Assembly: GCA_027486585.1 (NCBI GenBank)
Contig: JAIXOU010000097.1
Coordinates: forward strand, 1 to 64,000
Direction of reading: 5' to 3'
Origin: Verrucomicrobiaceae bacterium
GTDB lineage: Bacteria; Verrucomicrobiota; Verrucomicrobiia; Verrucomicrobiales; Verrucomicrobiaceae
DNA: 64,000 nucleotides
The notes beneath the pieces are model-generated. The model saw nothing but the letters and a program-made list of their open reading frames with translations. It did no database searches and was not told the origin of the DNA. Position 1 is the stretch's first letter. Each line of letters begins with the position of its first letter. Below are positions 42,954-62,700 of this stretch, piece by piece. The position numbers and the translations under genes were made by a program.

Positions 42954-44747
42954 ATGAAGTCTCCGAAGATAGCATTTAAACTCCTGCAAGTCGTTGCACT
43001 AACGGCGGGTGTTTTGTGGCCAAGCCTTTCGACCCAAGCAAGTGCCGCAAGCATCCAGCTCATTTTCAATCACTATGCTGGAGCTAATCCGGTTATTTAT
43101 GATTCCTTAAGATACCAGAACAAAGCTGGAGAAGAATGGTCTGTTACGCGATTAAGTTACCTTGTCAGTGGCCTTTCCCTTCAGCGTGAAGATGGCACAT
43201 GGATTAGCGGTTCAGATTCCGTGGCTTGGATGAATGCGACCACCAGAAGGCAAACTCTAAGTCAGTCGGGAGTCCCAGCAGGTAAATATCAGGCACTACG
43301 TTTCCACGTTGGCATCGACCCCAAAGATAATGCTAGCGACCCGTCCACACGTGCAGCCGATCATCCGCTGAATCCCAATTTATGCGGCCTGCACTGGAGC
43401 TGGCAGGGCGGGTACATTTTCATGGCACTCGAAGGTTTATATCGCACCCAAAATGGCCAACCGGAAGGTTACGCCCTTCATTTGGCTCGTGATCCCTACC
43501 GCACAGAAATCACGCTCAGACTGGAACTAGACCTTCAGAATGAAACGACGATCCCTTTGGTTTTCGATGTTTCAGCCTTGGTTGATGGAGTGAAGAACAT
43601 CTCCTTTACAAAAGACGGTGCCACCACTCACTCGAAAGACGGCGATCCTTTAGCCATCGCTTTGAAGGAAAATCTTCCTCGAGCTTTTAGCAGCGTCAAA
43701 AATCAGGATCAAGCTCCTGACCAGGCTTCTGAACAACCAAAACTAAAGCCGCTGTACTTGCCCAAAAAGTTCACCCCTTTCAAATTCACCATGGGAGCGC
43801 AGTTTCCCATGCCTGCCCTTCCAAATGACAACCCGCTCATCGAAGAGCGCGTGCAATTAGGAACTCTGCTCTTTCACGAAACAGCACTCTCCCGAGATAA
43901 CACGATTTCATGTGCCTCATGCCATGATCAATCCGCAGCTCTGACTGACCCGCGGCGTTTCAGCATCGGTGTTGCTGGCGGCATCGGAAACAGGAATGCC
44001 ATGCCTTTGTTTAACCTAGCATGGAAGCAAGCCTTCTTCTGGGATGGCCGTGCGCCGAGCCTGCGTGCTCAGGCGCTCATGCCGATCACAGATCATCTGG
44101 AGATGGATGAATCTTTAGATCAGGTGGCCAAAAAACTATCTGCGATCGAAACGTATGCTGACGCTTTCGAGCGTGCGTTTGGTTCCCCTGAAATCACCGC
44201 CGAAAAGATCGGTCTAGCCGTCGAAAACTTTCTTCTCACGATTACCTCTCACGATTCTAAATTTGACCGTGCCACTCGTGGCGAAGAAACGCTTAGTGAC
44301 GAGGAAAAGCGCGGCTTTGAACTCTTCATGACTGAGCGTGAACCACGCATGGGCAGCATGGGCGGTGACTGCTTTCACTGCCATGGTGGTGCGCTCTTTA
44401 CAGATCATCAGTTCCGTAACAACGGCCTAGCTATCTCGACCGAAGATCTAGGACGATACAAAGTGACCAAAGCGAGCATTGACCGAGGTGCTTTCTCCAC
44501 CCCCAGCTTGCGTAACATTGCAATCACGGCACCCTACATGCACGATGGTCGCTTCGGCAGCCTTGAAGAAGTACTGGATCACTACAGCGAAGGCGTTCAA
44601 CGCACGGAAACGCTGGACCCCAATTTAGCCAAGCATCCAAACGGAGGTCTGCACCTAACCAAGGACGAAAAAAAGGACCTTATTTCATTCTTAAAGACTC
44701 TGACAGATACACGATTTACATCGACATCCGCGTCCACAAAGAAGTAG
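42954..44747 (+). CDS. MbnP-like domain fused to di-heme cytochrome c peroxidase (MbnH-like)
   Basis: N-terminal FNHYAG...GLHWSWQGGYIFMALEG (MbnP-like); C-terminal heme motifs CASCH and CFHCH with LSRDNTISCASCHDQ, FFWDGRAPSLRAQALMPI. Confidence 0.88.
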   Translation: MKSPKIAFKLLQVVALTAGVLWPSLSTQASAASIQLIFNHYAGANPVIYDSLRYQNKAGEEWSVTRLSYLVSGLSLQREDGTWISGSDSVAWMNATTRRQTLSQSGVPAGKYQALRFHVGIDPKDNASDPSTRAADHPLNPNLCGLHWSWQGGYIFMALEGLYRTQNGQPEGYALHLARDPYRTEITLRLELDLQNETTIPLVFDVSALVDGVKNISFTKDGATTHSKDGDPLAIALKENLPRAFSSVKNQDQAPDQASEQPKLKPLYLPKKFTPFKFTMGAQFPMPALPNDNPLIEERVQLGTLLFHETALSRDNTISCASCHDQSAALTDPRRFSIGVAGGIGNRNAMPLFNLAWKQAFFWDGRAPSLRAQALMPITDHLEMDESLDQVAKKLSAIETYADAFERAFGSPEITAEKIGLAVENFLLTITSHDSKFDRATRGEETLSDEEKRGFELFMTEREPRMGSMGGDCFHCHGGALFTDHQFRNNGLAISTEDLGRYKVTKASIDRGAFSTPSLRNIAITAPYMHDGRFGSLEEVLDHYSEGVQRTETLDPNLAKHPNGGLHLTKDEKKDLISFLKTLTDTRFTSTSASTKK

Positions 44748-44774: not shown

Positions 44775-47339
44775 ATGCAGCTCGGCACCTTAACTCTACT
44801 TGGACTTTGTTTACTAGGGCTCAATATCCCAAAGGTAGAAGCTGCTTTTCCAACACTGCATTTACAGCCTGTGATTCTGGATCAGATCCACTCTCCCACG
44901 GCTATTGTGTCAGCCAGAGATGCCAGCGATCGACTTTTCATCTGTGATCAGCCCGGCAGAATCTTCATCGTGAAAGACGGCATGCTGTTGCCGACTCCCT
45001 TTTTAGATATCTCAAACACGGCTACAAATGTGGCTCATCGAAAGGTGCTGGGACTGACTTCAAGTTATGATGAGCGTGGTCTTTTGGGCCTTGCCTTTCA
45101 CAGTGGTTTCTCAAATCCAGCTTCGCCGGGTTATCGGAAGTTTTATGTCAACTACAACAAAACCTATCAGGCAGGCATAGATCCACCACCTCCTATCGCA
45201 GACCACATACCTAACTGCACCACGGTCATTGCAGAGTTTCAAACATCACTTACAAATTCGAATATCGCAGATCCTCTCTCTGAGCGCAAACTCCTACTCT
45301 ACACTCAACCTCAATCCAATCATAACGGTGGCGGCCTGGTGTGCGCAACGGATGGGACTCTCTACATCGCGAGTGGCGACGGCGGAAGCAGCAATGATAA
45401 CAACGTGGGCCACACAGGTGGCAGCGCAGCACGACCCACTGGTGGACTGGGCAATAGCCAAGATAAAACCCGCTTGCTCGGCAAGATACTGCGCATCTCA
45501 CCACTGGACCCAGATGGTGCAGGTCCACTCACGTATGGAATTCCTGGATCGAATCCATTCGTTGGAAGTGGCGGCGGAGTACGTGAGGAAATTTTCGCCT
45601 ATGGCATTCGAAACCCCTGGGGGCTCTGCTTTGATGATCGGGCCGGTGGTACAGGCAGACTTTTCTGCGCGGACGTTGGGCAGTTACGTGTGGAGGAAAT
45701 CAATATCATCACGTCTGGCGGGAACTATGGCTGGCGTTATCTCGAGGGCACTGAGCGTCCATCTTTCTCTACAAGTATGGCTCATCCCGGTGGGACGCTC
45801 ATTGCCCCAATCGCCCAATACGCGCATCCTGGCTCTAATGTAAGTGATCCAGCAAAACCCGGCTTCTTTCTCCCAGAACTAGGTCTCTCTGTAACCGGTG
45901 GCTTTGTCTATCGTGGGTCCGCGTTCCCGGCCATGCAGGGCAAATACATCTTTGCTGATTATGGTGCCACAAGTGGCGCGGCCAGCGGACGCTTCATGGG
46001 GTTGGAAGAAAGCTCGCCCGGCGTCTTTACGCTCACCAACACTCTGCCCCTCATTGGGCCTAATCCGACATCACTGCGCGTCCTTTGCCTCGGTGAAGAT
46101 GATAGCGGCGAAATTTATGTCGGAGGTAAAGTCACCGCCGGCGTCTTAGCCCTGCAAACGGGTCTACCAAATGGTGCGCTCTATAAGATTGTACCTGCAC
46201 CGGCGGTGGTGAATACAACCCAGCTTGAGCCCGTGAAAGATAACTCCATCTTTTCTGAACTTGGGCCTTTGGGAGAAGAACTGAGCAATGGCACAGGCAA
46301 TCTCTTCGCGGGCCGTACGGGCGCAGGGGAGAACAGGCGATCGCTCTTGAAGTTTGACGTTTCCAGTATTCCTGCAGGCTCTGCTGTAATCTCGGCAACA
46401 TTACAAATGAACGTCAATGCCACAGATGCAGCCAATCTAGGCGCGAGCAGTTTTGATCTTTTCAAGCTGCGACAGGATTGGGGAGAAGCCGCCTCCTTCA
46501 GCGCAACCGGACCCGCTTTTGCCCTGAACAATGACGCCACCTGGGACAATCGCTTTTACTCCGCTACGTCTCCCGTCGAATGGACTTTTGACATCGACCA
46601 ACCCTACTGGACCTCCACCTCCGCGACCGCCAGTCTGAATGCGCCGGGTAGCTACACCTGGACGAACTCCCTTTTTACAGATGTGCGTTCTTGGTTAGCC
46701 AATCCAGCTTTGAATCAGGGCTGGATACTCATCGGCAATGAGGCAACTAATGGAACAGCTAAGCAATTGCATAGCCGAGAAAGCGCAGCATCTATGCGAC
46801 CTAAACTCACCGTGACACATGTGTCACCTTCATCCTACGCACGTTGGATTGCCAATTATTTTCCGTCTTTGCCCGAAGGCGGCTTCCTCAGTCCAGATGG
46901 GGAGAATGATGTGAGCATCGACTATGATCGCAATGGCACGACAGACCTGTTTATCCCGACAGACAAAGATGGTTTCAATCATCTGATCGAGTACGCATAC
47001 GGCTTCAGCCCACTAAGCACCAACCCCGCTGGCAGTGATCAGTTTACGGTGGCTCTGTCGCCAGGAGTAAGTGGAAGCTCAAATTTAGCGGTCACTTTTC
47101 GCCGTGACAGCTCGGCTACAGATTTGATCTATCAATTGCAGATCAGTTCAGATTTAGTGCAATGGACCACGATGGCACAAAGCACGGCGGGCTCTGCGAC
47201 AGTGGGTGAGAACGGCAGCAGCGTGCAGTCTGATGTCCTGCTCAGCGGAACCGCACGTCTAGTAACAGTAATAAAAACCCTGACAACAGGAGCAAATGAG
47301 AAACAATTCGTCCGCCTGCGGGTGACAAGACTACGCTAG
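44775..47339 (+). CDS. PQQ-dependent sugar-dehydrogenase-like protein with DNRLRE-type domain
   Basis: ERGLLGLAFHSGF, QSNHNGGGLVCATDGTLYIASGDGG, AYGIRNPWGLCFD, GGNYGWRYLEG; downstream LEPVKDNSIFSE..LFAGRTGAGENRRSLLKFDVSSIPAGS. Confidence 0.88.
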   Translation: MQLGTLTLLGLCLLGLNIPKVEAAFPTLHLQPVILDQIHSPTAIVSARDASDRLFICDQPGRIFIVKDGMLLPTPFLDISNTATNVAHRKVLGLTSSYDERGLLGLAFHSGFSNPASPGYRKFYVNYNKTYQAGIDPPPPIADHIPNCTTVIAEFQTSLTNSNIADPLSERKLLLYTQPQSNHNGGGLVCATDGTLYIASGDGGSSNDNNVGHTGGSAARPTGGLGNSQDKTRLLGKILRISPLDPDGAGPLTYGIPGSNPFVGSGGGVREEIFAYGIRNPWGLCFDDRAGGTGRLFCADVGQLRVEEINIITSGGNYGWRYLEGTERPSFSTSMAHPGGTLIAPIAQYAHPGSNVSDPAKPGFFLPELGLSVTGGFVYRGSAFPAMQGKYIFADYGATSGAASGRFMGLEESSPGVFTLTNTLPLIGPNPTSLRVLCLGEDDSGEIYVGGKVTAGVLALQTGLPNGALYKIVPAPAVVNTTQLEPVKDNSIFSELGPLGEELSNGTGNLFAGRTGAGENRRSLLKFDVSSIPAGSAVISATLQMNVNATDAANLGASSFDLFKLRQDWGEAASFSATGPAFALNNDATWDNRFYSATSPVEWTFDIDQPYWTSTSATASLNAPGSYTWTNSLFTDVRSWLANPALNQGWILIGNEATNGTAKQLHSRESAASMRPKLTVTHVSPSSYARWIANYFPSLPEGGFLSPDGENDVSIDYDRNGTTDLFIPTDKDGFNHLIEYAYGFSPLSTNPAGSDQFTVALSPGVSGSSNLAVTFRRDSSATDLIYQLQISSDLVQWTTMAQSTAGSATVGENGSSVQSDVLLSGTARLVTVIKTLTTGANEKQFVRLRVTRLR

Positions 47340-47351
47340 TTAAAGGCACCA

Positions 47352-48116
47352 CTAATAGGGAGTCACCATCAATGCCACGGCGAAGAAACCAGTTGTGCCT
47401 GTAGCATCCACAAAGACGGTGCGCGTTCCGCTATTTCCTGCGATTTGAGAGATTGGGTTAGTCCCCACTGCTGATGTAAAGAATTGCGCGAATGTGGGAG
47501 CGTCCGTAAGTGTCTGCTGATATTGCACGCGATAAGTAAAGCTACTATTTAACGTCCGAAACTGTAAGCGCAGACGAATCGTGGTGGCTGTCGTGGACTG
47601 CACACTCACCGTGGAGATGCTGGTATAAAGTGCTGGCACCTCGACGGAGATGACACCGGTGCTGCTGTTGAAAGATGTCGCGTAGCAGGCGAGATCGCTT
47701 GTCGCTGCTTGGTCAGGTTTGACTTTACCTGCAATGTCGAACTGGGAAAAATGATTGGGGCATTCCATGAAGCCGCTGCTACCTCCCGAATAGGGGCCGA
47801 CCACGGTTCCTTCATGCGTGCATCTCGTATCTACGGCGTGAAAAACATCGCCAGGCGCTCTTGTGAGAGTGAAGGGATAATAAGTACCGACAGTCCCATT
47901 GTTAAACTTAAACTGCACAGAACCATAGTCACTTTGAAGGGCTGGGTAGTCGCTGAGCTTGATTTTGATAACCCCTGCATTTCCACCTGTGCCAATGGAG
48001 GCTAGGACACGTCCAGTCCAGAGCTTACCACCGATGATAGAGGCAGCGGTGCAAAGGGAAAACTGCTTGATGACTCTTCTACGAGTCAGTTCCGCGATTG
48101 GTTGAGTTGTACTCAT
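47352..48116 (-). CDS. Exported Rieske [2Fe-2S] domain protein
   Basis: RRRVIKQFSLCTAASIIGG leader; Rieske ligands CTH (TRCTHEGT) and CPNH (MECPNHFSQFD). Confidence 0.82.
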   Translation of the reverse strand: MSTTQPIAELTRRRVIKQFSLCTAASIIGGKLWTGRVLASIGTGGNAGVIKIKLSDYPALQSDYGSVQFKFNNGTVGTYYPFTLTRAPGDVFHAVDTRCTHEGTVVGPYSGGSSGFMECPNHFSQFDIAGKVKPDQAATSDLACYATSFNSSTGVISVEVPALYTSISTVSVQSTTATTIRLRLQFRTLNSSFTYRVQYQQTLTDAPTFAQFFTSAVGTNPISQIAGNSGTRTVFVDATGTTGFFAVALMVTPY

Positions 48117-48145
48117 GGTGTCAGACTCTCACAAAGCAGTCTGCT

Positions 48146-49945
48146 TTAAACAGTAAAATCAATGAAATCCAAATTTTTGGACACCAAAGTCGCGGCGCTA
48201 AAATCGGGCTGGAAACGGAAGATGTTTGGGAACACCGTGGAAAGTTGGTCATCTGAGAGACCAAACCATTTGGCGATCATGGCAGCTTTTTGATCTACCG
48301 CCGTGGTGGGAATCCAGAGCCCGCGATTGGAAGTCGTGGCATCAATCCCGCCGCCGACCGTGAGATCGGGAAAGGTTCCCAAGATTTGACCACCCTTCAC
48401 CGCACCGCCGCAAACAAAGCTGTTACCACCCCAAGCATGATCAGACCCCCCAGTGGCATCATTTTTGTTCGGTGTGAAAGTACGATTGAAATCAGAAGCA
48501 GAAAAAAGCATGACTTTATCCCACATACCGATGGCCTTCATGCAGTCAGAGAAGGCTTTCACACTACGACTCAGGTTATTGATCAGGTTATATTGCCCTG
48601 CATTGACGTTGGCGTTGGGGATCTGGGATGTGTGTGTGTCCCAGCCTCCGACTTGCACAAAGAAAATCTGACGTGAGTTGCTCAGCAAACTGCGGCCCTG
48701 AATAAGCCTAGCGACGACTTTCAACTGATTCGATAAGTCTGTCTGACCAAAACCCGCAGGGAACCAATTGCTAAAATGCGTGTCAATCACGGCATTGTTA
48801 GGAGACGCTGTTTGAGCCAGCGCATTTCCGACGAGACCTTCTGTGTTGCGCGCAGTTTTTGGTACGTTCACATAGTTTTCATCAAAGAGGCTATCATGGC
48901 TAGCTGCGAGCACCTGCTCCAAGGCACGAAGACGCCAGCCGGCACTGGTATTTTGATAGTTTGTGCCTGTCAGTGGATCCACGCTGCCTGTTAGAGAGCC
49001 GATGCCCGCCAATGGGTTGTATTTCGTCGCGCCCAAGGCAGCAGGATTCGTGTAATCGGGATTCCGAGCTACATCACGTAAAGCAGCACCATAGTTTGTA
49101 GAGGGACTGCCACCAGAGAACCCAGAAAGCGGCGTAACGGCACCCGAGGAGTTCATGAAATAGGGCTGCTCTGAAAGACCCACCTGAAAACTATTGGCGC
49201 CAGCAATAGAAACACTGACACCTAATTCACCGGAATTCATTCCTGCAACGATGTCTGCGACGCGCCCGCCCCAGCCATTTCGGAAGGGTTTATCAGGAAT
49301 GGATGACTGCCACTGCACCTGCTGATCGCTATGTGAGAATAGCTGAGGCGGCTTGGAGGTCGTGCTGAGATTAAAGTTAGCACGAGTGACCCCTGGACGA
49401 GTCAGGGTACCAATGTTCGTAAAGAATGAGAGGTCGCCACTGTCGAAGAGTGTCTTCAGCGGATACGCGCCGGGATGAACAGCTAGGTCGTTTTTAGTGT
49501 AGCTGTTCCCCAGCGTGGATCGGCTTGCTGGATCATAGGCCGTACTGCCTGCGGTACCATTGATCGGCGTGATGCGGGATGTCACAGCATCCGTGACGAT
49601 GGCTGTGCCATTGAAGTAACCATTGTTCACTGGAGGTGTGAAGTCATATTGCGCATTCGGGATGGCTAAAACTCCGCGACCTGTTTCATAATTAGTGCGA
49701 GCAGCCGATCCAGCTGTGCCTCCTGGCATAAGGAGATTGTTGGAATCATTACCACCATTGAGGAATAGGCAGATCAATGCTTTATAGTCACCCGCCCCCT
49801 GAGCAGCAGCTGAGCCGACCAGCTTGAGTTGAGCCAGCGTATTGACCATGCTTGTGATTCCAAGGCCTGCACAAGTTGTCTGGAGTAAGAAGTCACGGCG
49901 GTTTGGTTTGCTACGGTCTTCTGATTTACGGATAAAGATATTCAT
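48146..49945 (-). CDS. DUF1501 domain protein (Tat-exported)
   Basis: SKPNRRDFLLQTTCAGLGITS; CLFLNGGNDSNNLLMP; SDHAWGGNSFVCGGAVKGGQILGTFPDL. Confidence 0.93.
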   Translation of the reverse strand: MNIFIRKSEDRSKPNRRDFLLQTTCAGLGITSMVNTLAQLKLVGSAAAQGAGDYKALICLFLNGGNDSNNLLMPGGTAGSAARTNYETGRGVLAIPNAQYDFTPPVNNGYFNGTAIVTDAVTSRITPINGTAGSTAYDPASRSTLGNSYTKNDLAVHPGAYPLKTLFDSGDLSFFTNIGTLTRPGVTRANFNLSTTSKPPQLFSHSDQQVQWQSSIPDKPFRNGWGGRVADIVAGMNSGELGVSVSIAGANSFQVGLSEQPYFMNSSGAVTPLSGFSGGSPSTNYGAALRDVARNPDYTNPAALGATKYNPLAGIGSLTGSVDPLTGTNYQNTSAGWRLRALEQVLAASHDSLFDENYVNVPKTARNTEGLVGNALAQTASPNNAVIDTHFSNWFPAGFGQTDLSNQLKVVARLIQGRSLLSNSRQIFFVQVGGWDTHTSQIPNANVNAGQYNLINNLSRSVKAFSDCMKAIGMWDKVMLFSASDFNRTFTPNKNDATGGSDHAWGGNSFVCGGAVKGGQILGTFPDLTVGGGIDATTSNRGLWIPTTAVDQKAAMIAKWFGLSDDQLSTVFPNIFRFQPDFSAATLVSKNLDFIDFTV

Positions 49946-49987
49946 AACTTAGATGATGCGAAATTTTGATCTTCGAGTTTAGATTTC

Positions 49988-52900
49988 TCAATGAGTTACT
50001 AGTCCTGGTGCCCCAACTGTCATGAGATAGCCTGCCCATCGGCAGCGATCACGCACATCATTGGCGAAGGTGTCTGTTGGCGGAGATTTCGGATTAAAGG
50101 TAACCTCTGGCGTGTAACGCGTCGTTGCAGTCAAGCTATTGCCCCCACTGTGAACATAGATAGCTTCCATGATTGCCTGTCTAGCATTGATCGAAGGAAG
50201 CGGAACGGGCGCAGGTTGGTTTGGCTCGATCAAAATGGGGTTGCGGGCCTTCATGCTGCCTCCGCTAAACCACAGATCCATTTTGTCGATCATCACCTTG
50301 GTGGCCGCCCAATGGGCATTTTGCACTCGCGTATTATCAGTGGCTGATGGAGTCGTCGGGAAAGGATTTGGAATGACGCCACCATAAGCAGCACGCAGGT
50401 TTGAATAGAACGTATCGCGATAAAGCTGAATGCTTTCACTGTAGTCGATGACGATGTTATCCTTCTGATTGCTGGTACCTTGATCATTGACGAAGTAGCC
50501 ATTCGTTTTGCCAATCTGTGGCGGTGGCACATAGAATGCGGGCGGGTAGAGCGACAGGGTCACACTTGTGCCAGCAGCAGGCTGTGTGTTGAGTCTGATG
50601 ATGACGCTATCCCCAGTCGTGCTGCCCTCATTAATGATGGTGCTACCACCAGTATGAGCGATGTCGATGCTAGGCGTGTCATTGTCCCAGATCTGTGCCG
50701 TATGGGTCGGCACGCTCAGATTGCTGTAGAGTGGATCCGTGCTACTGACGCTGTGTGTGACGATGCCATTATGCGTCACCGTTTCGATCGTGGTATCATT
50801 CACTGCCGTCAAAGTAACCACCTGTGGCACATTCCAAGGATTGGCCCCAGCACTGGTCGTGAAAGTCAGTGAGGGTACACTCGCAGTGATTTGCGCGTCG
50901 GGCGTGATAAAGACGGTCACGTCCGCAGTAGGTTCAGCACTCAGCGTGATTGTGTAACTGTCTGTGACTCCATTTTCTGTTAGCACCGTACTGCCTTCTG
51001 TCGGCTGCACAGACACACTTGGACCGTCATTGTCATAGATGGCGCTGACCAGTGTGTTCACAGGCTTTGCATTAAAGAATGCATCTGCACTAGCGACTGT
51101 GGCGGTCACCTGCCCCCAATGAAGAATGGGTTCCATCAATTTATCATCCGCAGAACGGACAGTCACAGTCTGGGCAACATTGAAGGTGCCAGTGCCTGTA
51201 GCTCCTGGAATAAAGGTCACTACATTGGGGGTGACTGTCAGCTGGCTATCTGGCACAAAGGTGATCGTGACATTGGAGGTCGGCGCCTGACTCAATACCA
51301 CGGTGAAGGTATCTGCATTAGATGTCACTCCGTTTACGGTGGCACCACTTTCTGTCACGCTGGTTGATCCGCTACTTTCAGTAATGCGCACGACATTGTT
51401 GGCCACGGTCAGGTCATTGTCTGTGATAATCCCAGTGACTGACGGAAGACTGCTGAGCGCACTGTATTCAGCGGCACTTGTGGGACTAATGCTATGGGTG
51501 ATCGGAGAAAGATGACGTAGCTCTGAGATGGCATCATTCACTGGCAGCACTGTCACCGTCTGCGCTGTGCTCCAATTAGCAGGCGTGAAATTTAAGGTAA
51601 CAGTCGCAACTGTCGGTGTACCAGATTTGCTAACAAAGAGTTGGCTACCACCGTTAACAATGACGTCCACATTCCCAGTGGGTAACTTTGTGAGAACTAC
51701 TGTGTAACTGTCTGTGGTGGAGCTGCCTTCCGTTACTGCTGTCGTGCCACTGCTTTCGACCACGCTGATTCCTGGGCTATCATTGTCTGTTACTTGCACC
51801 ATCACAGGCGGCGCGGATAGGCCATTGAAATAACTATCCGTGCTGGCGACATTGAAGCTGACTGAACCCATGTGCAGTGCGGCCTCTACATTTGTATCAT
51901 CGACTGCTGTAACGGTGACTGTTTGAGCTATTGTATATGCACCTGTGCCTGTAGTAGCCGAGTTAAAACTCAGGCTGGCAGGAGAAACAGTGACCTGACT
52001 GCTTGGATTCAGTGTCACCGTGACTGTCGTTCCTGTGGCTGGAGCGCGCGGCAATAGAACGGTAAAGGTATCACTCAGATTCGGTGTCCCACCTGTTCCT
52101 ACAGTGCCACCTTCTCTGACTTGAGTGAAGATGTTTGTTTGGGCAATGGTCAATGGCGGATCATTGTCGTCCACCGTAACTAAAACGACAGGTGAAGAGC
52201 TGCGATCATAGACAGGATCAGAACTCACAATCGTGTGCGAAATCGTGGCAGTTCCTCTGGTTTCCGCTGTGCCATCATTAGTGGTAGAGACAGTAACGGT
52301 GACGGCAGTGTTCCAGTTCGTTTCATCAAAAGTAAAGGGCCCCGCAGGCGTAACTTGAACTCCCGTGGAGGAAGAAGTCAGGGAGACCGTGGCCGTCGTT
52401 CCAGCCTTGAGTTTACGGGCGAGGGAAAGAGTGTACGTATCATTGTTTCCGTCTTCATTCACAAGCGTACTACCACCACTTTCCGTAATGACGAGACGTG
52501 CGTCATCATTGTCGATGATGACGGCAGAAAGATTGTTGCCACTGCTGCTACCATTGTAATTCGTGCCAGCACTTTGTGAGTAGGCGGCAAAGCCGACAGT
52601 ATGCAGGCCTTCATTGCTATAGTCGTCTAGGGCTGACACTGTGACTGTTTGATCAACACTCCAAAGGTTAGAAGTGCCACTGGGTTCAAAGGTCAACTGA
52701 GCTGGAGTGAAGCGCAGTCCATTACCGCCGAGAGTCACACTGACTTGGGCATTCGGAACACTACGCAAACGCACCGTTACGGTGTCTGTTAGATCCCCAT
52801 TTTCAGTGACGCGTGTCTCACCACCAGTGTGAGACAAGATAATGCTGTTATCGTCATCCAAAATGCTACCGATCACAGGTTGAATAGGCAGAGTTGTGAT

Positions 52901-55900
52901 ATAGCCACCGGTTGCCGAGGAGACAGTGTGAGTGATGGTTCCTGTATGGTTACCTTCACTGGTTGTATCATTATTGCCACGGACGACGACGCCCTGCGGC
53001 ACATTCCAATTCGTCGTGGTGAAGGTTCTAGTTGTGGTGCCCGTAGTGAAGGTAGTGCTGATCGTTGTGTTGTTCGTGCCTGAAGGGGCCCCATTGATTC
53101 CGAGTTGACCATTCGAGGCACAATTGATGACAACATTCGCTGTGGGTGGCTTGGTCAGGACGATGGTATAAGAGTCTATTCCAGCCTGGCCGGCCGTGGT
53201 GTTATTCGTTTCAGAGACATCGGTCGTGCCTCCAGTTTGAGTAATCAGCACACCTAGAGCATTATCATTATCGACGACATTAACGGTCTGCATTGGCGTA
53301 ACAATGGCGTGGTAGTTTGCAGCAGTGCTTGTGGTCGTCAGAGTCACGGCATCATTGCCACTTCCAGTGTCTTCCACATCAGCATCATCGACTGCGGTGA
53401 TGGTGACAGCTTTGGCAATGCTCCAATCAGCATCAGTGTAGGTTAGGGTTGCTGGGCTGATCGTTATTTCCGAGTTAGCCGCTGTTAAATCCACTGTCAC
53501 CGTCGAACCAGCCGCGGGTGGGCAGCTCAGCATGACCGTAAAGCCATCCGTAGTGCCGCCTTCTTGAACCCAATTGTTACCGCCAGTCTGGGTGATCACC
53601 AGTTGCTCATTTTTGAGTTCATTGTCGACAAAAGTCAAAGGCACAGTCGGCGTGGCAACCCCCGCGTATCCAGCCGCGGTTCCACTCACCGCGAAGCGCA
53701 CATTGCTAGCGGCCATCTGGGCGATCCGCTGATCATTGACTCCTACCATTGTCAGCGTGATCCCAGTATTCCAATTGTTGGCATCGAGAGTGATAGAGGC
53801 TGGCCAGCCCATGAGTGTGGTCCCACCGTTGGTGGAGAAGCGTGCCGCTGGAGTTGCCCAACCATTACGGAAGATGAAGTCTGCGCCACTGACGCCTGGC
53901 TGCGCTGTCATCCCTGCCAATTGCATCCAGGTATAGTTATAAATCAGATTTAACTTGGAAACCTCCGCAGCCTCTGTGGCGATCTGTAACTCTGGCGCAA
54001 AGAGACCGGCCTGCGCCATATTGCCAGGAACAATGTAGTCGGGTAAGAACCAGTTAAACACACTCGGCGCATCCTGCGGAGACTGTCCCAGCGTGGAGCG
54101 CAGACTATCAATACGAATGCGGAAAGGTCCATCTGGCCAACCCAGAGGCTTTGAAGGTGGGTTGGCGTTTGCCAGACTGAACTTGGCATGTTCAGCTGCC
54201 GAATAACCACCTGTCATAGGAGCATCTAAATCAGAGAAACCCGTTTTCATGTCCCTAAGCAGGCTTACAGGAGCACCTGAAAAGGCCCGGAACTGCCGCA
54301 AAATAGAGGCAAAGTGCACAAGTGGCTCTTTCACTTTACCAAAGGAGATGGAGGTATCCGCAAGCTTGAGTGAGCGTGCCTCCCAGTCCAGCAAGATGGC
54401 TTTGATCACCGGCCCTAGAAGCCCGTTATTTTCACGATACACTTTCTGAACACGGTAAATGTAGCCCGCACTGGGATTGGAGGTAACAAGGCGTTGGATA
54501 AGCCAGCGTGAAATATTCACTGGGGTATTAGTATGGCCGGGGCTACCCTGTGAACCGTCACCATAAGTCGAAGCTGAGGCCACACCTGCAAGAACGTCAT
54601 GCGCCTCTCTGATCTCCGCAGCAGCTAGGTCATGCACCGCAGCATCAGATGTCGGTGACGTGGTCGTCACAGTTTTGGGGGTGATGAAGTACTCACCATG
54701 TTTTCCTGAGAGGAGTGTTTTGGCATTAAAATCATGGTAAATCGTGGTGCCAATGCGTCCTATCGTTTTCATCGGATAGACCCAGGCTGCTTGCCAGTAG
54801 AGATGCCCATTGTCTCGGCCAAACCAAGTGTTATTGGGCGTGCCATTCATGTAAATAGTCGGGGAGATGCGCTGCGTCGTATTCGTCAAACTCCCATACT
54901 GTCCAAGCACTTGAGTTGTTGCATTGCCATGACGTGCGCCGAAGGAAAAACCTGTGAATACTCGCGCCAGGGAGGAGATGTCATTGTTATCATACGTCGC
55001 AATTGGCAGCCCTTCGGAGTCTAGCTGTAAGCTACCATCTGGGTGGCGCAGCACGAGCCCGATGGAAAAGAGCTGCATGATTTCACGCGCATAGTTTTCA
55101 TCAGGACTAATGATCAAGCCGCCGCCAGCGTCATAAGAGGCGCGGTTAGCCACGCTGGTCAGATAAACACCCATCATTGGATTAAGAGAGACGTTTTCCA
55201 ACAACGTGCGGTATTTACCAAAAGCACCGCTTGCCAGCATATCCCAGTAGTTCGCAGTTCCATAGCCCCAGGAGTTTACGGTGGCATCACGTTCTGAAAT
55301 AACGCAGATTTCATGCAGAGCCTGAGCTACCCGTTGACGCACATGATCTTTACTCTGCAAAATCAGAGTCCACCATTCGCGCCGACGATTCGGTGAATCG
55401 CCGTTACCACCGCTGGGATTGTTATTGCCTGGTGCATTGGTATCTGGATTACCAGCGTTTGCCATCGGCATCCCATTCACATAAGTCACACCAATGCTAC
55501 CGCCATTGAGCTGCGGGTCACTGCTGAAAGTGATCGGTTTATTGCCGCGCAGAGCAAATTCCTCCATATCTGCGGCTACCATCAACTCTCGCAGACTGAG
55601 CTGCGGCGTCTGGCTGATGTCCATTTGCCGATCCAGCCAATTGGACAATCCATTAATGTATGTCCCGCCACTGGCGATTGCAGTATCACATTCGGTCCTG
55701 ATTTCATTGTACAGAGCTGTCGTGCCGCCAAATGTAGCCTGACCCATGAAGCGCCAGATCTCCCGCTCCAGAGCGTCTCCGACGGGTGCCTGCCAAGCTG
55801 CGCTACCGAGTGCTGGGGACAAAAGATCGTCATTATTGGGATCAAAACTGACAGAGCCGACGACCTTGTTAAAGAACCCAAAAAGCTCCTTATCTGGGTA

Positions 55901-57223
55901 GTCAGCGCTACTGACAGCACAGCCTAAGCTACCATTCCCCAAAGCCGCGAGAAACGCCTGATCTGAATATAGAAAACCAGGCTTGTATTCGACATTGTAA
56001 TTGAATCCTGAGACCTGTCCATTTGGTAGTGCTGGGGCTAGGTCATTGTTTGGGCCATACCTAATATAGGCTGTGTTTTGATCAGAACTAAGGTTGTTAA
56101 ACACGATTGAGATAGAGGCTTTCGTGTTGTCACCATTCACAAGTGCTGTGGCATAACCACTGGCAGTTGAGATGGCTCCAGACTCACGACCAAGATAGGC
56201 TACATATAGCGTGCGGTTATTCGAGTCTGCTGGATTGGCATCACTGATCTTCACCACAGCTGAGGCACAGGTTACATCAGCGGTTTGACCTGGTGCATTC
56301 ACGCAAACGGTGAGCATTTCAGGCACTTCGGCTTGATTGTCTAAAACAGGCACTACTTTCGCGACCTCGACTGGCGTTGTAATGCCTTGATTAGCTGGCA
56401 AAGTAACGGTGTTAGTAGACACGTTAGCCATGTTTTTGAAAACAAAATCCACCGTATCCGCATTGCTCTTTGCCGGATCAGCCGACCCTATCGTTGAACT
56501 TAAGGTCAACTTCAAAGGCATACTGCCAACACTTCGCTGAAGCCTCACCGTCGCTGCTGTGCCTTCTTTTTCCAGTGCTATATTCACACCCGCTGAAGCT
56601 TTGAGTGAAAGTAGAGATTTGAGTGTATCCAAGTCATTAGCGACACCACCTGAGGCATTATTTGTGCTGTTACCTGTCTGCGGATCACTACCTGTTTTGA
56701 ACTCGCTCCAGTCAGAAATTCCGTCCCCATCTGTGTCACGATCCTTGGACTCCAAGCGGTAGAATTTGCGTGAGCTGGCTGGCTTTGTGAAGATGATGGA
56801 ATCATTGCCATCAGCAGTGGCTAATTTGCTAGCGCCACTGACCCTTGTCCAGGCTGTCCCAGGTTCGCTCGGCGAGGGCCCGCCTGGCGTGCTGGATTCC
56901 CAGACTTGATATTCTTTTCCTTTCTTAGCTTGGAAGTTCATCACCACACCACCAGGTGAGATAGTCATGTCTCCGACTTTCAGGCAATCATTCGGATTGC
57001 GAGGGTTTGATCCGATGACGCTTTCAATATAATTAGAGCATCCGTCATTATCCTCATCACCCGAAGGGCTCAAGCCCCAGGCATTATAAAGAGACTGCCA
57101 GACATCATCCAGTTGATCAGCTGTGCCTTGAGACGGACCGGTAGAATAGTCATCTATGATGGCCTGCGCGGTATTTACAGCCAAGAAAAAAATACAGAGA
57201 TGAACGAAAATGAAGTAGCGCAT
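49988..57223 (-). CDS. Giant secreted DUF1800 protein with TSP3-like Ca motifs and an internal Calx-beta-like repeat array (2411 aa)
   Basis: Signal peptide; DRDTDGDGISDWSEFKTGSDP; NYAREIMQLFSIGLV...DISSLARVFTGFSFG and APSVFNWFLPDYIVPG (DUF1800); about 9-10 repeats with DNDxP.I...GG.T.V.E...D.Y.V.L. Confidence 0.92.
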   Translation of the reverse strand: MRYFIFVHLCIFFLAVNTAQAIIDDYSTGPSQGTADQLDDVWQSLYNAWGLSPSGDEDNDGCSNYIESVIGSNPRNPNDCLKVGDMTISPGGVVMNFQAKKGKEYQVWESSTPGGPSPSEPGTAWTRVSGASKLATADGNDSIIFTKPASSRKFYRLESKDRDTDGDGISDWSEFKTGSDPQTGNSTNNASGGVANDLDTLKSLLSLKASAGVNIALEKEGTAATVRLQRSVGSMPLKLTLSSTIGSADPAKSNADTVDFVFKNMANVSTNTVTLPANQGITTPVEVAKVVPVLDNQAEVPEMLTVCVNAPGQTADVTCASAVVKISDANPADSNNRTLYVAYLGRESGAISTASGYATALVNGDNTKASISIVFNNLSSDQNTAYIRYGPNNDLAPALPNGQVSGFNYNVEYKPGFLYSDQAFLAALGNGSLGCAVSSADYPDKELFGFFNKVVGSVSFDPNNDDLLSPALGSAAWQAPVGDALEREIWRFMGQATFGGTTALYNEIRTECDTAIASGGTYINGLSNWLDRQMDISQTPQLSLRELMVAADMEEFALRGNKPITFSSDPQLNGGSIGVTYVNGMPMANAGNPDTNAPGNNNPSGGNGDSPNRRREWWTLILQSKDHVRQRVAQALHEICVISERDATVNSWGYGTANYWDMLASGAFGKYRTLLENVSLNPMMGVYLTSVANRASYDAGGGLIISPDENYAREIMQLFSIGLVLRHPDGSLQLDSEGLPIATYDNNDISSLARVFTGFSFGARHGNATTQVLGQYGSLTNTTQRISPTIYMNGTPNNTWFGRDNGHLYWQAAWVYPMKTIGRIGTTIYHDFNAKTLLSGKHGEYFITPKTVTTTSPTSDAAVHDLAAAEIREAHDVLAGVASASTYGDGSQGSPGHTNTPVNISRWLIQRLVTSNPSAGYIYRVQKVYRENNGLLGPVIKAILLDWEARSLKLADTSISFGKVKEPLVHFASILRQFRAFSGAPVSLLRDMKTGFSDLDAPMTGGYSAAEHAKFSLANANPPSKPLGWPDGPFRIRIDSLRSTLGQSPQDAPSVFNWFLPDYIVPGNMAQAGLFAPELQIATEAAEVSKLNLIYNYTWMQLAGMTAQPGVSGADFIFRNGWATPAARFSTNGGTTLMGWPASITLDANNWNTGITLTMVGVNDQRIAQMAASNVRFAVSGTAAGYAGVATPTVPLTFVDNELKNEQLVITQTGGNNWVQEGGTTDGFTVMLSCPPAAGSTVTVDLTAANSEITISPATLTYTDADWSIAKAVTITAVDDADVEDTGSGNDAVTLTTTSTAANYHAIVTPMQTVNVVDNDNALGVLITQTGGTTDVSETNNTTAGQAGIDSYTIVLTKPPTANVVINCASNGQLGINGAPSGTNNTTISTTFTTGTTTRTFTTTNWNVPQGVVVRGNNDTTSEGNHTGTITHTVSSATGGYITTLPIQPVIGSILDDDNSIILSHTGGETRVTENGDLTDTVTVRLRSVPNAQVSVTLGGNGLRFTPAQLTFEPSGTSNLWSVDQTVTVSALDDYSNEGLHTVGFAAYSQSAGTNYNGSSSGNNLSAVIIDNDDARLVITESGGSTLVNEDGNNDTYTLSLARKLKAGTTATVSLTSSSTGVQVTPAGPFTFDETNWNTAVTVTVSTTNDGTAETRGTATISHTIVSSDPVYDRSSSPVVLVTVDDNDPPLTIAQTNIFTQVREGGTVGTGGTPNLSDTFTVLLPRAPATGTTVTVTLNPSSQVTVSPASLSFNSATTGTGAYTIAQTVTVTAVDDTNVEAALHMGSVSFNVASTDSYFNGLSAPPVMVQVTDNDSPGISVVESSGTTAVTEGSSTTDSYTVVLTKLPTGNVDVIVNGGSQLFVSKSGTPTVATVTLNFTPANWSTAQTVTVLPVNDAISELRHLSPITHSISPTSAAEYSALSSLPSVTGIITDNDLTVANNVVRITESSGSTSVTESGATVNGVTSNADTFTVVLSQAPTSNVTITFVPDSQLTVTPNVVTFIPGATGTGTFNVAQTVTVRSADDKLMEPILHWGQVTATVASADAFFNAKPVNTLVSAIYDNDGPSVSVQPTEGSTVLTENGVTDSYTITLSAEPTADVTVFITPDAQITASVPSLTFTTSAGANPWNVPQVVTLTAVNDTTIETVTHNGIVTHSVSSTDPLYSNLSVPTHTAQIWDNDTPSIDIAHTGGSTIINEGSTTGDSVIIRLNTQPAAGTSVTLSLYPPAFYVPPPQIGKTNGYFVNDQGTSNQKDNIVIDYSESIQLYRDTFYSNLRAAYGGVIPNPFPTTPSATDNTRVQNAHWAATKVMIDKMDLWFSGGSMKARNPILIEPNQPAPVPLPSINARQAIMEAIYVHSGGNSLTATTRYTPEVTFNPKSPPTDTFANDVRDRCRWAGYLMTVGAPGLVTH
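50515..53870 (-). repeat. Tandem Calx-beta-like repeat array within the DUF1800 protein
   Basis: About 100-aa units sharing VTEGG..D.YTV.L...P...VTVT, L.FT..NWN..QTVTV.A.DD, ITDND; boundaries approximate. Confidence 0.85.
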
Positions 57224-57314
57224 AGAAGATTGGTCGAAGCAGCTTGGTTGGACCTGCCTCGAATATTTCCCCTTAAACTACTGAAAACCAGCCTCATTGG
57301 GAAGGATAAAATCT

Positions 57315-57917
57315 CTAATCTCCACCATTAGCTGGTGCCGTAGCACCAAAACCCGCCGGACTTGGATTCAAAATCAAATCATCCTGCGTAAACATTTGCT
57401 TGTCAGGGCCAGCGGAGCGAATCTCCATTTGGCTGCTAGAATTCGGATGAAACCAAAACGGCGTGCCCCAGCGGTCGATGAGCTGCCCATCTCGGATGGC
57501 CCGGTGATTCCTTGGGAATAGCTGACCTGGCCGCGTGGCATCTGCCACTCCAATCAAGGCCGCAGTGATGTCTCCATTGCCACCGATGGGCATGCCCTCT
57601 TTAAAAGCCTTTCCATAAAGCGTGAGGAACTGCTGCACGATTTCAAGATCACGTTCAGGCGGGTTTTCCTGGTTGTGCAGTTCATCCGCCATTTTTTGAT
57701 GCTCAATATCCACCGGCGCAGCGGCTGAGCCCCTGATGGCCTGAGAAGGCAGAGTAGCCGAGGGGATCGGTTGTTGGATCCCCACTTCCTTTTTTTTCAC
57801 ACCGTTTGTCTCCGCCTGGGTTTCTACCCTGCTCCTAGAACTAAGCATCCAGGCTAAGAGCAAAGCCAGAACCAATAATAGCAGAAGATAGAGTCCTGAG
57901 CGCTTGGAAAGAGTCAC
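57315..57917 (-). CDS. Membrane-anchored protein with pseudopilin-like (GspG-like) C-terminal motif
   Basis: N-terminal TM LLLLLVLALLLAWML; C-terminal DRWGTPFWFHPNSSSQMEIRSAGPDKQMFTQDDLI. Confidence 0.65.
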   Translation of the reverse strand: MTLSKRSGLYLLLLLVLALLLAWMLSSRSRVETQAETNGVKKKEVGIQQPIPSATLPSQAIRGSAAAPVDIEHQKMADELHNQENPPERDLEIVQQFLTLYGKAFKEGMPIGGNGDITAALIGVADATRPGQLFPRNHRAIRDGQLIDRWGTPFWFHPNSSSQMEIRSAGPDKQMFTQDDLILNPSPAGFGATAPANGGD

Positions 57918-57947
57918 GGGGCCACTTATGGAGAAAGGTGCTTCACG

Positions 57948-59717
57948 TCAAATGGCGTAGTCAATGAAGTCGAGATTCGTCCCAGTGCCAAAGCGGGAGA
58001 GATTGGGGAAAATAACGTCGATACCACTCGATCCGGAAGGCACCCCCATCCATTGGGCGATCTTTGCAGCGTATTGATCGACCGAAGTGCTGGGAATCCA
58101 GCGTCCGCGATTGCCCGTACAATCGATACCTCCATTGGTCGTGAGGAGAGGAAAGGTGCCGTAGATTTTTTTACCTTTGATAGCACCACCGATCACAAAA
58201 GCGTGGCCACCCCAGCCATGGTCAGAGCCACCGGTACTGTCTGTTTTATTAGGTGTTAGAGTGCGGGTGAAGTCAGAAGCACTGAAGCCCAACACATCAT
58301 TCCAAAGTGCCGCTCCACCAAACTGATGTCCGTTGATCGCATCGTGGAAGGCTTTGACAGATTTGCTCAAGGTATCCAGCAAGGCATGATGACCTGCGGC
58401 CGTGTTTACACCCGTATTCGTATTGTTTGTAGCGATCTGTGAAACATGGGTATCATAACCGCCCTGCTGAGAGAAAAACACCATCCGGTCATTGCCCGGC
58501 TTGCCATCTGCGAGCAGTTTTTTATTTCCAATGATGAGTCGGGCAATCATCTTGAGCTGATTAGCAAAGTCATTATTGGCAGCCGTCGCGGAGTTATTAA
58601 AAGCAGCCGTGAAATAGCTATCTAACGATGCGCCAGTAGTGCCATCCGTATAAACGAGCGCATCAGAAATCAGTCCCTCGGTCAGACGAGCCGATTTGGA
58701 AACAGCCTGATGTTCTCCATCCAGCAGGTTAGCATGATTCATGGCCATAAGCTGCTCTAATGCACGCAACCTCCAGCCTGCGGCCGTATTGGTGGCTGAG
58801 CCAATGGTACCAGTGGTGAGGTAATTATTGGTGCCAGAGAGAGGGTCATACCCGGCAGTACCGCTCACAAAGGGTTTCTTGGAGACATCCACTAAGGCAC
58901 CGCCATAGTTGCTGCTCGGGGAGCCCCCCGTGAATCCGCTGAAAGGCGTAGCTCCACCCGTGCCGACCACATAAGGCTGCTCCCCCACACCGACCTGGAA
59001 GCTATTCACTCCAGATAGTGACACGCCAATAGCTAAGCCTGCAGATGTGGCATTGTATCCAGCACTCGGATTCACCAAGAAATCAGAAACACGCCCACCC
59101 CAGCCTGTGGTAAAAGGCTTATCTGGCACGGAGGACTGCCACTGCGTCTGCTGATCTGAGTGGGAGAAGAGCTGCGGCGGCTTGGCGCTTGGCGGTAGTG
59201 AATTAAAGTTGGCACGCGTGACACCTGGCTGAGTGAGGGTGCCAACATTGCAAACGAAGCCGAGTTTACCTGCATCAAAAAGAGTCTTCAAAGGACCACA
59301 GGCGGGATGCAGGGCAAAGTTGTTATTCGTGTAGCCAGGAGATGGATCAAAGGCACCGGCATTATCTGGTGTGATACCTGTGGCAGAGAGTGAACTCAGA
59401 GACAGTCCCAGACCACCGAGACCTCCTTGATACGTTGGCGTGCCACGTCCCAAGACGTAGTCCGCGCGCGCTTGGGCACCAGTTGGAATGAGGAAGTTAT
59501 TGGAGTCATTCCCACCATTGAGGAAGAGACAGACCAGCGCTTTAAAGTCACTAGCACCGCCAGCGGCATTCGCCTTGGAAGCGGCCCCAATTAGGGTCAG
59601 TTGAGAAAGTGTATTCACCACGCTGGTGATCCCGAGACTGGCACAGGTACTCTGCACCATGAAGTCACGGCGGTTCGGCTTGCTGCGATCAAGAGTTTTG
59701 CGGAGGAAGATGTTCAT
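57948..59717 (-). CDS. DUF1501 domain protein (Tat-exported), paralogue of 48146-49945
   Basis: SKPNRRDFMVQSTCASLGITS; CLFLNGGNDSNNFLIP; SDHGWGGHAFVIGGAIKGKKIYGTFPLL. Confidence 0.93.
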   Translation of the reverse strand: MNIFLRKTLDRSKPNRRDFMVQSTCASLGITSVVNTLSQLTLIGAASKANAAGGASDFKALVCLFLNGGNDSNNFLIPTGAQARADYVLGRGTPTYQGGLGGLGLSLSSLSATGITPDNAGAFDPSPGYTNNNFALHPACGPLKTLFDAGKLGFVCNVGTLTQPGVTRANFNSLPPSAKPPQLFSHSDQQTQWQSSVPDKPFTTGWGGRVSDFLVNPSAGYNATSAGLAIGVSLSGVNSFQVGVGEQPYVVGTGGATPFSGFTGGSPSSNYGGALVDVSKKPFVSGTAGYDPLSGTNNYLTTGTIGSATNTAAGWRLRALEQLMAMNHANLLDGEHQAVSKSARLTEGLISDALVYTDGTTGASLDSYFTAAFNNSATAANNDFANQLKMIARLIIGNKKLLADGKPGNDRMVFFSQQGGYDTHVSQIATNNTNTGVNTAAGHHALLDTLSKSVKAFHDAINGHQFGGAALWNDVLGFSASDFTRTLTPNKTDSTGGSDHGWGGHAFVIGGAIKGKKIYGTFPLLTTNGGIDCTGNRGRWIPSTSVDQYAAKIAQWMGVPSGSSGIDVIFPNLSRFGTGTNLDFIDYAI

Positions 59718-59735
59718 AGCAGTGAAAGGTAGAAA

Positions 59736-62700
59736 TTAATGGGCTGTAATCGCCGCAGGAGCCACGGAGACCAGGAAGGCTGCAAAGCGGCAACGATCAC
59801 GCACTTGGTCAGTAAAGGTCGTGCCTGCACTAGATAAGGTGGTAGTAGCGTAGGCGTTTAAGATAGCGTCAATGATCGGCTGTCTCTGATTCGTCGGTGG
59901 AACCGTAGCTGCCGTTCCGTCAGGCCATTTCGCTTTCATTCGCCCACCACACCACCAAAGATCCAGCTGATCGATCACCGCCTTAGTCCCAGCTAGATGG
60001 AATGTAGGCGCATTCGTGGTCGTCTCAGTCGCAGCACCTCTCGCCGCCTGATAAGCAGTCGTATAAGTAGCACTCAGCTCCGTCCAATCAAAGAGCATGT
60101 TGTCACGCTGCTGAGTACTGTTGGGCAGATCATTGGCAAAGTAACCGAACTGCTGCGCCAGATAACCATTGGGCCGCGCATGTTTTTGCGTCACAATAGT
60201 CACTGTCACATCTGCTGTCGGTGCCCCACTCAGAGCGACGGTATATGTCGCCGTGCCACCTTCGGAAACAGAAGTCGTCGGCTGAGAAATCACAAGCCGA
60301 CTGCTGACGTCGTAAATGCTGATGCCTGCCAGCGCACCTGTATTGGCCGCGCCATAGCCGCCAGCCACATTCGGAGTACAAGTCAGTGTATAGGTCGCTG
60401 GGATGCCTTCGACGACAGCGTCATTGACAGCAGTGACGGTGAGTAGCTGTGGTAGATTCCAGTCTGTCGTGGTGAACGACAAGTTGGCTGGTGAGAAGGT
60501 CACTTGTGAAGCAGTGTTTAGCGTCGGCGTCACTGTCACGGTGGCCGTCGGCTTCTTGCGCAGCATCACATAGACCTGATCACTATTCGGAGCACCGGAC
60601 TCATACATCACCGTACTGCCGCCTGTATTGAGGACATAAATCGCATTCGTGCTTTCGTCATCGTCACCAATGATGGCGTTGACACTGGGAACACTGAAGG
60701 TCGCGTAATTTGTATCCGTCGTCGAGATCCTGTGCCCGATAAAAACAAAGCGGTTGTTGTTATTGGTGGTATCATTGGCCAGCGTGACGGTCACAGTTTG
60801 AGGCGTATTCCAATTCACTGGAGTAAAGACCAGCGGCGCGGAGAAAGTGACCAGATTTGTTCCTGTGATTCCCGTTAGCGGATTGTGGGCTTGCGGGGTG
60901 ATTGTCACATTCGCTGTGGGCTTAAAGCCGAGCGCGATGGTGTATGTATCTGTATTCGTCGAGCCTTCTCCGAGTCGAGTGAAGCCACCGCTTTCCACGA
61001 CATTCACCATGGCCGTGCCCTTCACATCATTGTCACCGATCGCCACAGTCACCGATGCTAGATCCGTGAGCAAATAACCACCCGCCGAGCTAGACACATA
61101 GTTGATGGCAGAAGTGTGCACATTTTCGATATCGCTATCATCCACTGCCGTCACCGTGATGACTTGGGGCACATTCCAGTTCGCTGGGGTAAAGGTCAGG
61201 TCAGTTGCTGATAGCGTGATTTGTGATGGATTGTAGCTGGCGGAAAGCACCACATTCGCACTCGGCGCACGGCGCAAAATGACGCTATAACTATCGGTGA
61301 ACCCGCCTTCCACGACTTTGGTCACATTCCCTGATTGATAAACTGAAATCAGTGAACGGGCCTGATCGTCATTGTCGATGATCCGCACTGGAATGGCTGT
61401 ACTCAGACTAGTGTAGGGTGCTGGCTGGGAAGCATTCGTCGTAATGTTAATCGTGTCTGTATGCACTCCCTCAACCGTTGTATCGGCCGCCGACATAATG
61501 GTGAGCGTCTGAGGCACGGTATGGTTGGTATCAGTAAAGGTCAGCGTCTGCGCAGAGGTGCTCGTGCTACCATCAGCAAAGGCAAACTGCACCTGCGCAC
61601 CTGCACGCGCCACGGAGACCGTAACCGGAGATCCAGCCGCCGGCGCGGGCCCTGTGAGCCTGACTTGCAAGGTATCTGTGCCTGCATCCTCCGCCACGAC
61701 GACATAGTTCGTGCCAAACAGTTGCCCCGTTGTAGTCCCAACGAGTCGTGAGGTTTCGTTGTCGTTCACGGCCAAAGCAATGTCTGGCGCGATGGTGCCA
61801 TTGTAGCGCGCATCTGTGCCCGCTTGAATGGTCACTGTATTTGCCACGATCATATTCATGATTGCTTCTGCCGTTGTGTCATCCGTAGCTGTCACAGTGA
61901 TCGTATTGCTTGTCGTACGATTCCATACCGTTGCACCAGCAGCCTGACTAAAGTCTAGACTGGTTGGGTTAAAGCTGATCTGACCAGTGCTGGTCGCATT
62001 GTTAAAGAAGGCAGAAGGAGTCACCCGCACCGTTGCTCCCGTGAGCGGGCTCGCGGCCAAACCAACAGTATAAATAAAGGTGCTTCCACCTTCCGTGACA
62101 CTGCCACTCACAGGTGTGATGGTAACAGCTGGATTTGCGGCTTCATTATCACCGATAGAGATGGTGAAAGCCGTGGAAATATCTGTATTCACATAACCAC
62201 TTCCACTAGCACTGTAGAACAGATTGGAGGAATGAGCTCCTTCAATGACTGCATCATCAGTAGCGGTCACTGTCACGACTTTCGGCGTCGCCCAATCATT
62301 CGCATTAAAGGTAAGCGTATTCGGAGAAAGCGTAATCTGACCTGCATTGGTGAAGTTCGGAGTCAGCGTGACCGTGCCGGTTGGTTGACGGCGCAAATGA
62401 ACCTCAATGGTGTCAGTCATGCCGCCTTCGATGACGCGCGTGTTGGTATTGGTCTGAGCAACCGTAATAGCATTGGTAATGATGTCATCATTATCCAGGA
62501 TTCGCAGTACTTGCGTCATGCTCAAGCTTACAAATCCAGCTGCAGCTGAACTAGGAGTGGTCAGCGTGATCGTATCCGTCGTGACACCCTCCGTGAGGAA
62601 ATCAGCCACTGGCGTGAGCGTGATCGTCTGTGCAGCATTGACAGCCGTGAAGCTCAATGTGAGTGAAGCCGAAGGTGCGCCGCCATTACTGAACAGCGTC

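Follow-up and report, generated by a model that had tools for sequence, protein, structure and literature searches.

An uninterrupted gene in the window, the 64,000-nucleotide stretch of Verrucomicrobiaceae DNA analysed here, joins an MbnP-like domain and an MbnH-like di-heme domain in one polypeptide. From its sequence features, the product is probably a periplasmic, self-maturing Cu(I)-binding protein that supplies or buffers copper for neighbouring metalloproteins. In methanobactin operons, MbnP and MbnH are separate proteins, and MbnH oxidises a Trp of MbnP to kynurenine.

One reading frame encodes both domains

The gene starts with ATG at 42954 and continues in frame to a stop codon at 44745-44747. 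Its 597-aa product consists of a Sec-like leader, the MbnP domain, a linker (about residues 250-290) and the MauG/MbnH-type di-heme domain, in that order.

42954-44747, + strand: fused MbnP-like/MbnH-like gene, a continuous open reading frame of 597 aa, stop included, with PF20243 and PF03150; the fusion is kept in relatives
42954-43049, + strand: putative Sec signal peptide, residues 1-32, read from the sequence as a hydrophobic stretch to ...LSTQASAAS, with a predicted helix at residues 5-25
43050-43616, + strand: MbnP domain, residues 33-221 (PF20243, 3.8e-33; fold match to MbnP 7l6g)
43806-44723, + strand: di-heme MauG/MbnH-like domain, residues 285-590 (PF03150; TIGR04039; MbnH 6e1c)

Pfam assigned the N-terminal half to MbnP (PF20243, 115.4 bits against a gathering score of 27, 3.8e-33) and the C-terminal half to CCP_MauG (PF03150, 181 bits against a cut-off of 25.6, 3.3e-53, Pfam match at residues 297-445). 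With both halves above cut-off, these results bear out the preliminary description of the gene as an MbnP-like and MbnH-like di-heme fusion in one open reading frame; its coordinates, strand, length of 597 aa and heme motifs (CASCH at 320-324 and CFHCH at 473-477) were all exact, and the MbnP homology on which it depended is present in the N-terminus.

The NCBIfam models were more restrictive. The MbnP half scored 46.8 bits against the equivalog cut-off of 140 for TIGR04052 (MbnP_like_WxW). The best match of the di-heme half was TIGR04039 (MbnH family di-heme enzyme; 4e-70, 236.5 bits), under the cut-off of 362.85, and this half also missed the cut-off of MauG TIGR03791 (209.6 bits vs 443.85). 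Because both halves fall under the NCBI equivalog cut-offs, we use the words "MbnP-like" and "MbnH-like"; by these scores, the halves are placed within the named superfamilies but outside the curated equivalogs. No mau gene was recognised among the genes of the window.

The predicted kynurenine precursor and copper ligands are conserved

Conservation was assessed in an alignment of 95 fused proteins; an earlier set contained 52 fused rows. Trp148 was followed in a wider census of 165 rows, some of which are one gene fetched twice. The relevant residues of the MbnP half are as follows.

43362-43364, + strand: His137, nearly invariant candidate copper ligand (52/52 rows; at least 90% of 95 rows)
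43392-43394, + strand: His147, immediately N-terminal to WxW (invariant in 95 rows)
43395-43397, + strand: Trp148, first Trp of WxW, predicted kynurenine precursor (invariant in 95 rows and in all census rows; aligns with the WxW of methanobactin-operon MbnP)
43401-43403, + strand: Trp150, second Trp of WxW (50/52 rows)
43479-43481, + strand: His176 of the HL[GA] motif, candidate copper ligand (invariant in 95 rows; aligned in 17/17 sequences, including methanobactin MbnP)
43629-43631, + strand: His226 of the THS motif, candidate copper ligand (invariant in 95 rows; Met in methanobactin-type MbnP)

The results showed that R66, G120, H147, W148, E160, G161, H176 and H226 were invariant in the 95 fused rows, as were all heme-binding Cys and His residues, W363 and Y544. 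The WxW motif of the window protein is W148-S-W150. The preliminary description had hinged on conservation of the modified Trp, and W148 was found in 95/95 aligned fused proteins. The second Trp gives way to Pro in one protein (L022) and to Leu in another (L048); this pattern, with W148 invariant, is what one would predict for an essential first Trp. Manesis et al. (PNAS 2021) are said to have found that the first WxW Trp of MbnP is oxidised to kynurenine via MbnH and that this is required for Cu(I) binding.

The first motif Trp and the His of HL[GA] align throughout the fused proteins and the MbnPs of Methylocystis parvus, Trichormus, Paracoccus and two Deinococcus. In the alignment, the GCM Met of canonical MbnP falls at the THS His226 of the fused proteins, and the four-Cys motif behind the older name of TIGR04052 has no Cys counterpart in the fused MbnP domains aligned with canonical MbnPs.

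The fusion is widespread in Verrucomicrobiota

The preliminary description had treated the fusion as a property of the window gene alone. This did not hold: the fused architecture is spread across the phylum and falls into two old paralogous clades. MbnP was detected in 22 of 388 genomes sampled across the phylum, and a fused frame was present at 52 loci when 37 close relatives were added to this sample. A second collection was obtained by a contig scan, from which the best 80 of 425 loci were taken. Both heme motifs lay in one frame at 77 of these 80 loci, and the other 3 leave the contig end. The best 80 of 425 loci belonged to Verrucomicrobiota wherever the title names a group, and the groups named among them were Prosthecobacter, Chthoniobacter flavus, Haloferula rosea, Akkermansiaceae, Limisphaerales and Opitutales. 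All Verrucomicrobiota MbnP genes found in the 22 of 388 genomes and the best 80 of 425 loci were fused, remnants of a broken fusion, or truncated at a contig end.

The source genome (6.5 Mb, 97% complete) contains two fused genes, the second (L002) on contig 68. This second copy, along with over 90 distinct relatives that share the fusion, ruled out a sequencing or assembly artefact, and the phylum-wide occurrence ruled out a single oddity of the source genome.

Two apparently unfused MbnP genes were rejected: one (L170) is a fused gene with a probable frameshift, and the other (L177) is a fused gene split by transposase genes. The latter, from a more distant genome in the phylum, lies in a region (5944-11543) where a frame-broken YHYH gene stands upstream, so that the whole appears as a decaying YHYH-mbnPH unit. 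At two other loci (L039 and L055, within the larger regions L188 and L199), the open fused frames exceed 1,050 aa, with several hundred residues N-terminal to the MbnP domain; this extra sequence may be a third fused domain or merely open frame.

Neighbouring genes point to candidate copper clients

We surveyed 109 distinct loci for the immediate same-strand gene within 150 bp. YHYH proteins (PF14240) were the neighbour at 41 of the 109, mostly upstream and often overlapping. A galactose-oxidase-type gene lay downstream at 16 loci, with a 4-bp overlap with the fused gene in 13. These 16 downstream proteins are 2,200-2,900 aa long with an N-terminal galactose oxidase (PDB 4.3e-101; PF09118), and all 16 have two heme c motifs and a complete C/Y/Y/H/H copper radical site (C122, Y167, Y381, H382 and H465). 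A GSDH+DNRLRE gene was the neighbour at 9 loci, the window included, one of which (L077) also has YHYH. A CusA/CzcA exporter was found at 3 loci (TIGR00914 over cut-off in both tested) and a sensor kinase related to heavy-metal sensors at 2 (TIGR01386 under cut-off in the one tested). The presence of copper radical oxidase and CusA-type exporter genes beside fused relatives agrees with the copper context suggested in the preliminary description.

The partner type tracks the tree of fused proteins, with 6 changes vs 26.8 when labels were shuffled. A deep split places the galactose-oxidase group on one side and nearly all of the YHYH group on the other; the window copy, with its GSDH neighbour, is nested among YHYH-type genes. 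Across the 388 genomes, PF09118 occurred in 8, one gene each, all of them MbnP genomes (Fisher p 2.7e-11, uncorrected for shared ancestry), and 8/8 of these genes lay at most about 3 kb from the MbnP match of a fused gene. PF14240 occurred in 48 of the 388, including 22/22 MbnP genomes (p 6e-23, likewise uncorrected for shared ancestry). In some close relatives, a galactose-oxidase gene is also found elsewhere in the genome. A metal site of three His and one Asp has been predicted for YHYH (PMC7824862); no PDB relative of YHYH was found by sequence.

In the source genome, the sole PF09118 gene lies on contig 68, where it overlaps the second fused copy. It encodes a 2892-aa protein (region L152, 4275-12950; contig 68, 18274-26949, - strand) whose start overlaps the stop of the second fused gene, and the chain comprises a galactose-oxidase-type oxidase, Ig/PKD/PA14 domains, a beta-propeller and a di-heme cytochrome. 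Such an oxidase-cytochrome fusion could permit direct electron transfer to heme. Contig 130 (82357-115388) has four YHYH matches in 33 kb that adjoin neither fused gene; two lie in reading frames about 3,000 aa long or longer.

These arrangements also bear on another reading, in which the di-heme domain is mainly a MauG-like maturase of the neighbour's protein (copper radical oxidase, YHYH or GSDH) and the MbnP domain serves only as copper donor or docking site. MauG itself acts on a separate protein, partner genes overlap the fused gene and follow its tree, and in Streptomyces both DtpA and Sco are required for GlxA maturation (PMC4736821). However, W148 does not vary, while the partners are entirely different from one clade to the other, and for many fused genes no partner was recognised; we regard this reading as rather unlikely.

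The genes around the window copy are as follows.

44775-47339, + strand: GSDH (glucose/sorbosone dehydrogenase-like) and DNRLRE repeat protein, 854 aa, 27 bp past the fused stop (Pfam/NCBIfam)
47355-48116, - strand: Rieske-domain protein
48149-49945, - strand: DUF1501-type protein
49991-57223, - strand: very large repeat protein, 2411 aa
57951-59717, - strand: DUF1501-type protein, judged by an N-terminus similar to that of the first
59739-63581, - strand: very large repeat protein, 1281 aa

The GSDH+DNRLRE gene is the probable operon partner of the fused gene, and a minus-strand run of large exported proteins occupies 47355-63581. Reading of the open reading frames recognised no copper gene near the window copy within 64 kb, which leaves its client the most uncertain element of the proposal. 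The MbnB family (PF05114) had no match in the whole source genome, which rules out a methanobactin system and extends to the entire genome the absence of methanobactin biosynthesis that the preliminary description had noted nearby.

The di-heme half is of the MauG/MbnH type

The heme sites and associated residues of the C-terminal half were located as follows.

43911-43925, + strand: first heme c site CASCH, residues 320-324 (Cys and His invariant in 95 rows)
44040-44042, + strand: Trp363, aligned with a Trp of MbnH 6e1c and presumably the inter-heme Trp (invariant in 95 rows)
44370-44384, + strand: second heme c site CFHCH, residues 473-477 (invariant in 95 rows)
44583-44585, + strand: Tyr544, at the position of the axial heme ligand Tyr294 of MauG (invariant in 95 rows; ungapped alignment onto MauG chain residue 294)

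The ordinary di-heme peroxidases aligned here have Met at the Tyr544 position. In a tree of di-heme domains, all fused rows formed one clade (100/100), which in the small, plasmid-based outgroup sample used stood nearest to the enzymes paired with a separate MbnP (87/83 support). The axial Tyr544 in place of Met, together with the placement in this small tree, speaks against an ordinary bacterial di-heme cytochrome c peroxidase.

A role in peroxide scavenging without Trp modification, with the copper-binding part as a structural or sensory extension of a di-heme peroxidase, is in our judgement improbable. The protein does share its superfamily with bacterial di-heme peroxidases, and a galactose-oxidase partner would make H2O2. 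Against this stand the axial Tyr of MauG/MbnH type, invariant in 95 rows where a peroxidase would have Met, and the retention of the first WxW Trp in all census rows.

The predicted structure supports both family assignments

An AlphaFold2 model of the fused protein, built from the 95-row alignment, had a mean pLDDT of 89.5 and a pTM of 0.86; the MbnP domain modelled alone reached a mean pLDDT of 94.7. In Foldseek searches of the PDB, the MbnP-domain model matched all six chains of 7l6g, the MbnP of Methylosinus trichosporium (best E 2.7e-9, probability 1.00, TM 0.64-0.66 by query), and no other protein under E 0.001. The fused model matched MbnH 6e1c first, followed by MauG and peroxidases, with the Y294H MauG variant among the matches. 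The 6e1c entry, entitled "MauG-like protein associated with microbial copper homeostasis", was the top PDB match of the di-heme half both by sequence and by fold.

The high pTM for a two-domain chain suggests that the modelled domains have a defined arrangement. Cleavage of the domains after export, so that they act as an ordinary separate pair and the fusion only fixes stoichiometry, is very improbable: one block of the linker is modelled with low confidence (pLDDT 58), but the overall pTM suggests a defined two-domain arrangement, and the phylum yielded no split copy other than genes broken by frameshift or insertion.

Proposed function and significance

In the self-maturing Cu(I)-binding protein that we favour, the di-heme domain would, after export and heme attachment, use peroxide or O2 plus electrons to convert Trp148 of its own MbnP domain to kynurenine, either within one chain or between the two chains of a dimer, by analogy with MbnH/MbnP chemistry. 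The kynurenine would complete a predicted Cu(I) site in which His176 and His226 take part and to which His137 or His147 may also contribute. Gene linkage suggests that the copper-loaded protein may then supply or buffer neighbouring exported metalloproteins, the candidate clients being the galactose-oxidase-type copper radical oxidase in one clade and, in the other, the YHYH protein with its predicted metal site. Descended from the YHYH clade, the window copy now stands beside a sugar-dehydrogenase-like gene. Counting against this reading are the scores of both halves under the equivalog cut-offs, the missing four Cys of the MbnP domain and the lack of a recognised copper gene near the window copy.

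More tentatively, the protein may be a self-activating copper-delivery enzyme that makes its own kynurenine copper site and loads the co-encoded radical oxidase or YHYH metalloprotein, with H2O2 from the oxidase feeding Trp oxidation. If true, copper radical oxidases would have a route to copper maturation that bypasses Sco-type chaperones, and MbnP/MbnH would gain a defined client outside methanobactin.

A natural fusion of an enzyme with its substrate sets both their pairing and their 1:1 stoichiometry; it needs only one gene for expression and opens Trp-to-kynurenine oxidation to single-turnover study. The gene order also points to candidate clients, namely the copper radical oxidase and YHYH, a family without functional characterisation. 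To our knowledge, work later than the genome-mining paper describes the role of MbnP/MbnH outside methanobactin operons as unclear. The mining paper itself left this role open (PMC3621798). No report of the fusion or its partners was found in the open-access papers searched, a set that lacks the main MbnP/MbnH papers, and priority is not established.

Comparison with known systems

The MbnP/MbnH pair (TIGR04052/TIGR04039; 7l6g and 6e1c) is conserved far beyond methanobactin producers (PMC3621798), and in methanobactin operons, Deinococcus and cyanobacteria its two members are encoded separately, side by side. Like the pair, the window protein has an MbnP fold with WxW and the common His, and a MauG-like di-heme partner with an axial Tyr. 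Unlike the pair, it is one polypeptide, lacks the four-Cys motif and has both halves under the equivalog cut-offs; fused proteins have His for Met at the THS/GCM position and an extra His before WxW. A further difference from the methanobactin-operon pair is that the source genome has no MbnB.

The methanobactin operon of Methylocystis parvus (L212) has the order TonB-dependent receptor, mbnP, mbnH, mbnA, mbnB, mbnC. There (3884-5044), and at L137 (5874-7025) and L138 (5570-6739), a di-heme MbnH beside MbnP is named in the plasmid annotation as "methanobactin export MATE transporter MbnM", yet each of these proteins has two CxxCH motifs and the axial Tyr, and on L212 a gene labelled mbnM, its product called hypothetical, sits further downstream. 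The "MbnM" product names on L212, L137 and L138 seem misassigned.

The nearest unfused arrangement seen here is a plasmid cluster of Deinococcus radiodurans (L136, 4914-8427) with the order MbnP, cytochrome c peroxidase, hypothetical, CopC and CopD. It has a clear copper context and, like the fused proteins, falls under the TIGR cut-offs (85 and 264 bits), but its MbnP and peroxidase are two genes, and it has YWAW/FWAW in place of HWxW.

MopE/SACCP and CorA/CorB of methanotrophs resemble the proposed system as surface or periplasmic copper proteins with a Trp-derived kynurenine beside two His, encoded together with a di-heme peroxidase-like protein (PMC3912023). They are separate proteins, however, and MopE and CorA have no marked sequence similarity to MbnP (PMC3621798).

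In Streptomyces, the copper radical oxidase GlxA depends on both the Sco chaperone and the heme peroxidase DtpA to mature at low copper (PMC4736821). By analogy only, this system combines, as does the clade of the second copy, a copper chaperone, a heme peroxidase and a galactose-oxidase-type oxidase; neither its chaperone nor its heme peroxidase belongs to a family related to MbnP or MbnH, and its components are separate proteins.
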